From contig JAIBAQ010000011.1 in NCBI GenBank assembly GCA_019695095.1, forward strand, positions 1 through 64,000: a stretch of 64,000 bases of DNA. Reading direction: 5' to 3'. The position numbers and the translations under genes were made by a program. Below the pieces are notes generated by a model. The model was not told the DNA's origin and searched no databases. It saw only the letters and a program-made list of their open reading frames with translations. The DNA comes from Candidatus Hydrogenedentota bacterium (GTDB lineage Bacteria; Hydrogenedentota; Hydrogenedentia; Hydrogenedentales; SLHB01). Below are positions 48,762-52,457 of this stretch, piece by piece (position 1 is the stretch's first letter; each line of letters begins with the position of its first letter).

Positions 48762-50150
48762 TTACGCGCTCGCCTTCCCGTTCGGGTGATACTTCTCGAT
48801 CCAAGCATCGCGCACGCGCTTGAGTTCGCCGCGCGGCAACAGCGCCAACAAATTCCATCCAATCGCGAGACTCTCTTCAATCGTGCGGTTCTCGTCTTCA
48901 CGCTGAGTCACGAACTTCGCCTCGAACTCGTCGGCAAACTTCACAAACAACAAGTCCGTCTCGCTCAACGCGGATTCGCCCAACACCACCGCGAGTTCTT
49001 TCGCGTTCTTGCCGCGCGCATACGCGGAATAGAGCTGATTCATCACGTCCGCATGGTCTTCGCGCGTCTTGCCGTTGCCGATACCCTTGTCCTTCAATCG
49101 CGACAGCGAAGGAAGCACGTCCACCGGCGGGTAGATACCCTGCGTGTGAATCGGGCGGCTCAGGATAACCTGACCTTCTGTGATATAACCCGTCAGGTCG
49201 GGAATCGGGTGCGTCTTGTCGTCTTCCGGCATGGTCAACACCGGAATCTGCGTGATCGAACCGCCCTTGCCCTTGATGCGGCCCGCGCGTTCGTACAGCG
49301 TCGAAAGGTCGGTGTACAAATAGCCCGGATATCCGCGGCGGCCCGGCACTTCCTTGCGCGCGGCGGAAATCTCGCGCAGCGCTTCGCAGTAGTTGGTCAG
49401 GTCCGTGAGGATAACCAGCACGTGCATGTCTTTCTCATACGCGAGGTATTCGGCGGCAGTCAGCGCCATGCGCGGCACCGCGATACGTTCGATGGGCGGG
49501 TCATCCGCAAGATTCATGAACAACACGGCGCGCTCGAGGGCGCCCGTGCGGCGGAAGTCCGCGATGAAGAATTCGGATTCTTCGAACGTGATGCCCATGG
49601 CCGCGAAAATCACGGCGAACTTCTCGCCGCTCTTCAGCGTTGTGGCTTGCCGCGCGATCTGCGCCGCAAGCCGCGAATGCGGCAAACCGGACGCGGAGAA
49701 AATGGGCAACTTCTGCCCGCGCACCAACGTGTTCAGCAAGTCAACCGTCGACACGCCCGTCTGAATGAATTCGTTGGGATAGTCGCGCGCAAACGGATTC
49801 ATCGGGCTGCCGTTGATGTTCAACCACTTCTCGGGAATCAGCGCGGGTCCATTGTCGATAGGCCGGCCGAATCCGTCGAACACGCGGCCCAACATGTCTT
49901 GCGACACGCCGAGTTCGATGCCCTTGCCAAGAAACTTGACGCGCACCTCTTTGGGCGACAGTCCGCTCGTTCCTTCGAACACCTGCACCATCGCCTTGTC
50001 GCCGTTGACTTCCAACACGCGACCGCGACGGATGTTCCCGTCGTCCAACTTGATGTCCGTCAGCTCGCCATACGTGATTCCTTCCACGCCTTCCACAAGG
50101 ATAAGCGGACCGATGACTTGCCGGACTGTGCGATACTCTCTGGTAACCAA
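48762..50150 (-). CDS. atpB: V-type ATP synthase subunit B
   Basis: A 462-residue non-catalytic nucleotide-binding subunit of the A3B3 head. It has [21 protein letters not shown], an altered P-loop region ([23 protein letters not shown]) and [15 protein letters not shown]. As in other B subunits the Walker A Lys is not conserved. It follows subunit A, from which it is separated by the 515-bp heptamer-flanked insertion. Confidence 0.95.
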
Positions 50151-50167
50151 TTCTTGACTCCCAAGCT

Positions 50168-50205
50168 ATTTTGGATTTTAGATTTTAGATTTTGGATTTT
50201 AGATT
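50168..50205. repeat. Left heptamer array, (ATTTTRG)5-ATT
   Basis: Five consecutive heptamers at 50168-50202 read ATTTTGG, ATTTTAG, ATTTTAG, ATTTTGG, ATTTTAG, then ATT. It lies 17 bp upstream of the subunit B start codon. The array supplies the last codons and the TAA stop of the four-helix-bundle gene. It is the inverted partner of 50652-50682. Confidence 0.92.
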
Positions 50206-50580
50206 GACGAGCCTTTTGGACTCCGTCAGCAGACCGCGTTTCAACGTCTTTATGGATGCCACTGTCATCGCCAGTATCTCATTTGTCTCGTCAATTAGCG
50301 GTTGAAGTCGCTTACCAGATACGATTCCCGACTCGACTAACAACTCCAACCAATAAACCGTCTCGTCTGCTTCCTCTTCCACAATGGCCAACTTCGCCGC
50401 AATGTCCGCGCGGCTCTTCGCGCGACATGCTGCACGATAATTGGCGCCTATCGAAGTGCCCGAGCGCACAACTTGCCGCCCTATCACTCCGGCAGTTCCT
50501 GTTCGTCCAAGCGATTCAACTAACGCGATTACCCTGAGCGCGAGTTTGCGAGTCCGTTCTTTGAACTGCTCCTCTGTCAC
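50185..50580 (-). CDS. Four-helix bundle protein (23S rRNA IVP/Avd-like)
   Basis: A 131-residue all-helical protein of the four-helix-bundle family first known from genes in 23S rRNA intervening sequences and related to Avd of diversity-generating retroelements. Seen here: LALRVIALVESLGRT, GRQVVRSGTSIGANYRAACRAKSRADIAAKLAIVEEEADETVYWLELL, with the family SxGxNxxEA-like region. Family members form pentamers and may bind nucleic acid. The C-terminal residues NLKSKI and the TAA stop come from the flanking heptamers. No reverse transcriptase or variable repeat is near. Confidence 0.85.
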   Translation of the reverse strand: MTEEQFKERTRKLALRVIALVESLGRTGTAGVIGRQVVRSGTSIGANYRAACRAKSRADIAAKLAIVEEEADETVYWLELLVESGIVSGKRLQPLIDETNEILAMTVASIKTLKRGLLTESKRLVNLKSKI

Positions 50581-50651
50581 TCTTTCCAGGGCCTTCCTAA
50601 TACTAGCCGTACCCTACAAAGTCATCCGAAATCCGGGCATCAACTCTCTTC

Positions 50652-50682
50652 AATCTAAAATCCAAAATCCAAAATCCAAAAT
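50652..50682. repeat. Right heptamer array, inverted (ATTTTRG)4
   Basis: On the minus strand this reads ATTTTGG three times, ATTTTAG, then ATT (50682-50652). It starts 2 bp after the subunit A stop codon and faces the left array. Both arrays share the same final ATTTTAG-ATT. Confidence 0.92.
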
Positions 50683-50684
50683 CA

Positions 50685-52457
50685 TCAGACTCTCGGCAGC
50701 GCCTTAATCTCTTCGGTGATGTTGGATTCTAGGACGGCAAAATCAGCGAGCTTGTCTTCCGGAATTAGTTTCGCGCGCGCGATCTCGTCAAGCGCTTTCA
50801 GGCTCAGCAACGCGTTCAGCGCTACGCCTTCCTTCAAGCCGGCGCGCGCTTCCTTGTAGTAATGCTGGATGACCTGCAAGATACGCATTTGCTTCTTCAA
50901 CGACGTGTAACTGTCGCGCTCGTCGAATGCGTTTTGGTGCAGGAAGTCTTCGCGAATCATTTTCGCCGCCTGCATCAAAAGGCGATCCTCCACCGCCAGC
51001 GCGTCGATACCCACAAGGCGCACCAACTCTTCCAACTCGGCTTCGCGCTGCAGAATGGCCATCGCCTGCCTGCGAACGCCTTCCCACGCCGCGTCCACTT
51101 TTTCGTTCGCATATTCATCGATCGTGTCTTGGTACAGCGAATACGACGTGAGCCAGTTGATCGCTGGGAAGTGGCGTGCAAACGCAAGTTTGTCGTCCAG
51201 ACCCCAGAACACCTTCACCACGCGCAGCGTGGCCTGCACGACCGGCTCGGACAAGTCACCGCCGGGAGGCGACACCGCGCCGATCAGCGACAACGAACCG
51301 GGACGCTTGTCCGATCCAACGCAAACGACGTTGCCGGATCGTTCGTAGAAACTCGCAATACGCGAGCTGAGATACGCGGGATAGCCTTCTTCACCGGGCA
51401 TTTCCTCGAGGCGGCCCGAAATCTCGCGCATAGCCTCGGCCCAACGGCTGGTCGAGTCGGCCATCAGCGCCACGGAATACCCCATGTCGCGGAAGTACTC
51501 GGCAATCGTAATGCCCGTAAACACGCTCGCTTCGCGCGCGGCCACCGGCATATTCGATGTATTCGCAATCAGCACCGTGCGCTCCATCAGCGGCTCGCCG
51601 GATTCGGGGTCCTTCAAGTGCGGGAATTCCATAAGCACGTCGGTCATTTCGTTGCCGCGTTCGCCGCAGCCGACGTATACGATGATACGTGCATTGGACC
51701 ACTTCGCGAGCTGATGCTGCACCACGGTCTTGCCGCTTCCGAAAGGTCCCGGAACGCATGCCGTCCCGCCTTGTGCGAGCGGAAAAAACATGTCAATCAC
51801 GCGCTGACCCGTCACCAAAGGCTGCGACGGCGGCAGCTTGCTTGCCACGGGCCGGCCGTAACGCACCGGCCAGCGCTGCACCATGGTCACCGGGCGCGCA
51901 CCCGACGCAGTCTCAATGACAGCCACCTCGGTATCGACATTGCCCGTAACCGCCGCAATGCGGGTAACGGAACCGGATACACCCGGCGGAACCATAATCT
52001 TGTGAACCACAAGCTTGCTCTCGACGACCGTTCCTAGCACGTCGCCGGGCGCGACCTTGTCGCCGGTCTTGGCAACCGGTTCGAACTTCCACTGAACCGC
52101 GCGATCGAGAGCGGGCCGTTCCGCGCCGCGCACGATGAAATCGCCAAAGTCTTCCGCCAGCTTGTCGAGCGGCCGCTGCACGCCGTCATAGATGGATTTG
52201 ATGAGACCCGGCCCAAGCTCCACGCTCAGCGCTTCTCCGGTGCGGAACACCGGTTGTCCGGGCCCGATCCCTTCCGTCTCTTCGTACACCTGAATCGAGA
52301 ACTCGTCGCCGCGAATTTCGATGATCTCGCCGAACAGCCTCGGTTCACCCACGCGCACCATCTCATACATGCGCGCGCTGCCAAGTCCCGTGGCGACCAC
52401 CAATGGTCCGGATACCTTGACGACCACTCCTTGATTGACGTCTGTCGCTACCGCCAT
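50685..52457 (-). CDS. atpA: V-type ATP synthase subunit A (catalytic)
   Basis: A 590-residue catalytic subunit. Walker [12 protein letters not shown] (about 231-241) is intact, as are the subunit A 'bulge' domain, [13 protein letters not shown] and [28 protein letters not shown]. It binds and hydrolyses or makes ATP at the A/B interface. Length is standard. It is followed by the heptamer-flanked insertion. Confidence 0.96.

Follow-up and report, generated by a model that had tools for sequence, protein, structure and literature searches.

A single gene enclosed by inverted arrays of a heptamer, ATTTTRG, stands between atpA and atpB in a V/A-type ATPase operon of a Candidatus Hydrogenedentota bacterium, and this locus raises the question of what such a unit is and how it came to lie inside an operon that otherwise looks complete. 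We addressed this within the whole 64-kb stretch of DNA that was analyzed (hereafter the window) and by comparison with other genomes. The sequence-only reading of this DNA had described two facing arrays of 38 bp and 31 bp with the same inner end (ATTTTAG-ATT), one enclosed gene, and residues of 2 bp and 17 bp beside the atpA stop and the atpB start, all of which are exact in the sequence (Table 1).

Table 1. Features of the array-bounded element and its surroundings, in window coordinates.
Feature	Position	Strand	Description
Whole element	50168..50682	.	515 bp, between atpA stop and atpB start; array at either end
Left terminal array	50168..50205	+	5 x ATTTTRG + ATT, 38 bp; G-containing strand inward
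Right terminal array	50652..50682	-	4 x ATTTTRG + ATT, 31 bp; inverted relative to left array
Four-helix-bundle gene (23S_rRNA_IVP / TIGR02436)	50185..50580	-	131 aa, GTG start
Residual spacer, atpA stop codon to element	50683..50684	.	2 bp
Residual spacer, element to atpB TTG start	50151..50167	.	17 bp; GGGAG RBS-like stretch on minus strand
atpB, V/A-type ATPase subunit B, downstream neighbor	48762..50150	-	PF00006, PF22919
atpA, V/A-type ATPase subunit A, upstream neighbor	50685..52457	-	PF00006, PF16886

The arrays form terminal inverted repeats, as in a MITE or DNA transposon, and no other tandem repeat of period 5-10 reaches their score elsewhere in the 64-kb window. The element contains no catalytic gene, only the one gene that it encloses, and as the stop codon of this gene falls within the left array, the C-terminus of the protein is array-encoded. 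When the element is folded as RNA (MFE -203.8 kcal/mol, z = -6.1), its left and right arrays pair in a terminal stem of 34 bp.

The enclosed gene encodes a member of the 23S-IVP family (PF05635/TIGR02436), both by curated cut-off and by fold. The protein matches PF05635 at 5.2e-16 (59.2 bits; cut-off 33.8) and TIGR02436 at 5.9e-24 (84.4 bits; cut-off 24), and it matches no known catalytic family. Its predicted fold is a four-helix bundle (pLDDT 93), for which the best PDB matches are BT_0352 (2rld; TM 0.74/0.92) and Xcc0516 (2gsc; TM 0.72/0.85). Avd of diversity-generating retroelements (DGRs) has the same fold and is matched more weakly, both alone (4dwl) and in the DGR reverse-transcriptase complex (8ub7). 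The match to Avd, together with the stable RNA stem, would fit an RNA-based retroelement, in which a reverse transcriptase, acting together with an Avd-like protein, would insert copies of the hairpin RNA elsewhere. However, the neighbors of the window element are V-ATPase genes, with no reverse transcriptase beside it as there is in a DGR, and the one PF00078 (RVT_1) match in its own genome is weak and lies on another contig. An obligate reverse transcriptase partner is also not supported by several gene-rich, nearly complete genomes that lack such an enzyme, among them G034 (96% complete, 10 family matches, 0 matches to PF00078) and likewise G039. We therefore regard the retroelement explanation as improbable.

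The sequence-only reading had proposed that the unit is mobile and that empty sites in relatives would support this. About 25 relatives of the same order lack the element between atpA and atpB, where most of them have a gap of 9-50 bp, which shows that the window element is an insertion. Three relatives are exceptions, with gaps of 108, 414 and 774 bp that contain other sequence and no such arrays; the 774-bp insertion (L046, in G011) differs from the window element and occupies the same junction. An independent copy of 473 bp occurs in G009, which belongs to the same family but to a different genus. It shares the heptamer, its gene is homologous to that of the window (68% identity), and it lies at the atpF-atpA junction, where it immediately follows the stop codon of the gene that precedes atpA. 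In G021, from the same genus as G009, this site is a short intergenic sequence of ordinary kind. No target-site duplication was evident at two aligned sites, where the sister genomes are only about 70-80% identical. In these alignments, empty sites show that the element is mobile; the atpA-atpB comparison and the second copy in G009 thus bear out the proposed single-gene mobile unit, and the label "non-autonomous" that was given to it is plausible because the element contains no catalytic gene.

The presence of two related copies in the same operon in two genera, though at different junctions, and the great stability of the hairpin would also fit a recruited host function, in which processing or attenuation at the hairpin tunes the ratio of V-ATPase subunits and the gene itself serves the host. 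We consider this very improbable, as the operon lacks such an element in most relatives of the same order and as the gene elsewhere lies between unrelated genes, such as cas6 and cas4 or nrdB and nrdA.

ATTTTRG arrays occur at about 24 loci in the genome that contains the window, and the window locus is the only one that encloses a four-helix-bundle gene. Besides the window element, this genome has three inverted pairs without a gene (134, 231 and 523 bp), and the remaining arrays look one-sided. We observed many inverted array pairs of 53-284 bp in G007 and G009, with mostly unrelated interiors. In G009, an array that seemed one-sided is matched at the other end of the unit by degenerate ATTTCAG repeats, so some one-sided arrays may be decayed pairs. 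A gene-less 164-bp array pair in G009 precisely separates a stop codon from a start codon where G021 has the two overlapping as TAATG, a second gene-less G009 site is empty in G021, and at a third site both genomes contain array pairs with different interiors. These comparisons show gene-less pairs of the same heptamer that are dispersed in these genomes and, judging from the aligned sites, were recently inserted. Arrays scattered through the genome with no link to such genes had been named beforehand as an observation that would speak against mobility. Arrays without the gene are indeed what the genome contains, but we take them as support for mobility, because the gene-less pairs are recent insertions and because gene and array are linked across bacteria. 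Of 88 arrays that comprise at least three units, 65 have four, a mode that indicates a defined end rather than a slippage series.

Among the loci examined from G000, G007 and G009, none of the array pairs with these ends was longer, as would be expected of a full-length partner that encodes a transposase. A common interior of the gene-less elements was considered and rejected, since, beyond three copies of one 165-bp family and a small number of short matches, most interiors are unrelated. The 523-bp pair of the window's own genome (L035:892-1414, contig C290) was likewise rejected as a decayed gene copy, since it consists of three tandem units of about 155 bp and no gene; each of these copies contains a terminator-like GCCCGGC hairpin. 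At another locus, in G009 (L112:3290-3640), a palindromic, REP-like repeat some 50 bp long (CTCGTTCCCAAATTTCCATTTGGGAACG...) adjoins an array-bounded element, and the site also contains a partial copy of the 3' end of the neighboring gene. This REP-like repeat is found in many copies at many places in G021.

Where an ATTTTRG array had a long frame that reads toward its outer edge within 400 bp, the stop codon of this frame was located at -7 to +10 bp in 31 of 65 cases, and gene-bearing elements likewise abut stop codons. The enclosed gene was co-directional with both neighbors in 25 cases and opposed to them in 6 (p = 0.0009). Selection that spares coding sequence and ribosome-binding sites could be the source of both patterns; co-direction with the operon would also be expected of the retroelement considered above, but selection can account for it.

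The association of gene and array extends well beyond this order. A same-order sample of 30 family genes from 30 genomes contained period-7 arrays at nearly all of them, with a heptamer that differs from element to element. For a wider sample, we used a pattern scan of 84,980 species genomes, with open frames in place of gene calls, and examined the best 80 named loci, which come from more than 20 phyla. Period-7 arrays were present on both flanks of 23 of 79 genes, compared to 3 of 1176 control placements in the same loci, and periods other than 7 were near zero at the flanks of these 79 genes. When all 160 genes with complete flanks were pooled, 72 had strict inverted heptamer pairs and 5 had direct ones, where the null obtained by joining the left array of one locus to the right array of another is 1.7%; the inward-running strand on the left side was richer in G than in C in 70 cases and the reverse in 0. 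About half of the loci have no strict array pair (degenerate, one-sided or none). No rRNA was found at 20 array-less loci, and phage records yielded two distant matches to the gene family.

As predicted before the search, tandems of GGGANNN flank xanthomonad members of the family, in 13 of 28 genes compared to 1 of 112 controls; these genes carry GGGATTC/GGGAATC arrays, and 24 of the 28 genes in this family of Pseudoxanthomonas (Xanthomonadaceae) have period-7 arrays. All eight plasmid-borne genes examined, seven of them cyanobacterial, have arrays of period 7 or 8 on both sides; two are located between cas6 and cas4 and one between nrdB and nrdA. The cas6-cas4 cases, both flanked by heptamer arrays, are L365 (Anabaena sp. 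90 plasmid pANA02) and L372 (Pseudanabaena galeata plasmid pPg_01). The arrays at L371 (a Gemmatirosa kalamazoonensis plasmid) and at L146 are of period 8, not 7. At L150, unlike nearly all other loci, the flanking arrays (CCCTARA) have the same orientation; this locus, close to the end of a contig, may be where two elements meet. Across the loci sampled, these data show a gene-plus-array anatomy that recurs in bacteria with element-specific heptamers.

These counts bear on the proposal that the arrays are slippage microsatellites that enclose the gene by chance. Heptamer repeats are common in some bacteria, according to passages of PMC4692102 and PMC4679880, and gene-less arrays do exist in the genome of the window. 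The enrichment of period 7 on both flanks, the inverted pairing, the polarity of G toward the interior and the modal four units are nevertheless not what slippage would produce, and a chance or slippage origin of the arrays is refuted by the cross-genome statistics unless these are a sampling artefact, which makes this explanation barely credible.

To relate the heptamers to the proteins, we compared their distances. The heptamer distance was about 3.4 of 7 positions between proteins of low identity and 1.3 where the proteins were more than 80% identical (Mantel r = -0.25, 0 of 2000 permutations). As far as sequence comparison goes, this correlation proves that gene and ends are co-inherited as a unit; binding does not follow from it, as co-inheritance of gene and array explains the correlation without any binding. 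ATTTTRG arrays were abundant in only 3 of 60 genomes, the same three that encode a protein with 60% or more identity to that of the window (P about 3e-5 if the genomes were independent; as they are drafts related to each other, such P values are optimistic). For a second heptamer, TAGGCTK, we counted 542 matches in G007, 112 in G037 and 98 in G055, and it was almost absent from the other 65 genomes. Genes with TAGGCTK ends were found in G007 and G037, two of the three array-rich genomes, and genes with imperfect arrays of this kind in G008. This gene-array co-occurrence is imperfect, and we count it against our preferred explanation. Avd-like relatives of the four-helix-bundle protein bind nucleic acid, and from this and from the co-variation of protein and heptamer we infer that the protein may recognize the heptamer ends.

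Movement of the element by an unlinked transposase (for example HUH/Y1, as for REP elements, or DDE), with the arrays as end sites and the gene as passenger or helper, would amount to MITE-like mobilization and would agree with the inverted ends, the gene-less derivatives and the lack of a catalytic gene, as well as with the REP-like palindromes at one site. Ends that vary by element and track the four-helix-bundle protein are unexpected for a passenger, however, as is the recurrence of the same gene type with such ends across bacteria, and no target-site duplication was seen at the two closely aligned sites. We therefore think that this explanation is unlikely.

Given these observations, we propose, with a probability of roughly two in three, that the 515-bp unit is a mobile selfish element resembling an intervening sequence (IVS), with inverted heptamer-iteron ends, a gene of the 23S-IVP family, and ends that are recognized by its protein. 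The iteron ends, typically four 7-bp repeats and inverted, would be bound by the cognate four-helix-bundle protein (a pentamer in solved relatives), either as DNA or as a folded RNA stem. The bound protein would bring the ends to a host or trans-acting enzyme, and gene-less pairs would then be mobilized in trans. The operon would tolerate the element because it lands at the upstream stop codon and leaves the next ribosome-binding site intact. In the transcript, the element would form a long hairpin open to removal by RNase III, as occurs with 23S rRNA IVS, and by this analogy the 34-bp terminal stem makes IVS-like excision plausible. Against this explanation we count that the element has no catalytic gene, that neither a clear target-site duplication nor an excision product was seen, and that strict array pairs are missing at about half of the loci.

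Comparison with known systems shows several features that the window element shares with rRNA IVS. Like the 23S rRNA IVS of Coxiella and Leptospira, it contains a four-helix-bundle ORF within about 430-515 bp and has terminal inverted repeats that form a stem of about 28-34 bp. Unlike them, it lies between the protein genes atpA and atpB rather than in rRNA, has explicit heptamer-array ends, and is accompanied in its genome by dispersed gene-less derivatives. In the Coxiella 23S rRNA IVS, GACAGAT heptamers in tandem precede the S23p gene and the ends form a 28-bp stem; this IVS is excised by RNase III, and its origin is unexplained (PMC4990558). Coxiella S23p is apparently not expressed (PMC4990558), which we count against our preferred explanation.

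Like MITEs and REPINs, the gene-less units are short, non-coding and dispersed, with inverted ends, and presumably moved in trans. They differ from these in their heptamer-iteron ends, in the variety of end sequences tied to a gene type, in their mostly unrelated interiors and in the lack of an observed target duplication; REPINs with RAYT have palindromic REP hairpin ends, whereas the ends here are tandem heptamers and not palindromes. In passages of PMC4692102, Xanthomonas GGGAATC repeats are described as intergenic, close to the 3' end of the upstream gene, mostly of four units and often in convergent inverted pairs, and these and Nostoc GGGGAYT repeats as G-quadruplex repeats of unexplained origin; those passages draw no link to four-helix-bundle genes. 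The same Xanthomonas heptamer flanks the xanthomonad four-helix-bundle genes analyzed here, and we found no paper in the open-access literature that joins this gene family to heptamer arrays. The P6b stems of Nostoc trnL introns contain inverted heptanucleotide repeats, TDNGATT (PMC4476775), which the TTRGATT of the window fits; these stems are inside a group I intron and contain no gene, and a link to the window element is only suggested.

We extended the proposal to a class of mobile elements that spans the bacteria and has so far had no name. A non-catalytic four-helix-bundle protein would confer specificity for the heptamer-iteron ends of its own element, ends that evolve rapidly, and the class would include rRNA IVS and generate the heptamer repeats of Xanthomonas, Nostoc and other bacteria; we give this extension an even chance. 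One implication is a caution that a gene of this kind should not be taken for a functional partner of the operon that it interrupts. 23S_rRNA_IVP genes have been listed among the functions of cas loci (PMC3936711), and this listing may reflect element insertions, given that the two cas6-cas4 genes described above are array-flanked. The design would tie together several repeat families and rRNA insertions of unexplained origin, and the pairing of protein and heptamer makes the idea directly testable. One answer may cover three puzzles, namely the origin of rRNA IVS, the role of the very widespread 23S-IVP proteins outside rRNA, and why long simple repeats in bacteria are dominated by heptamers.
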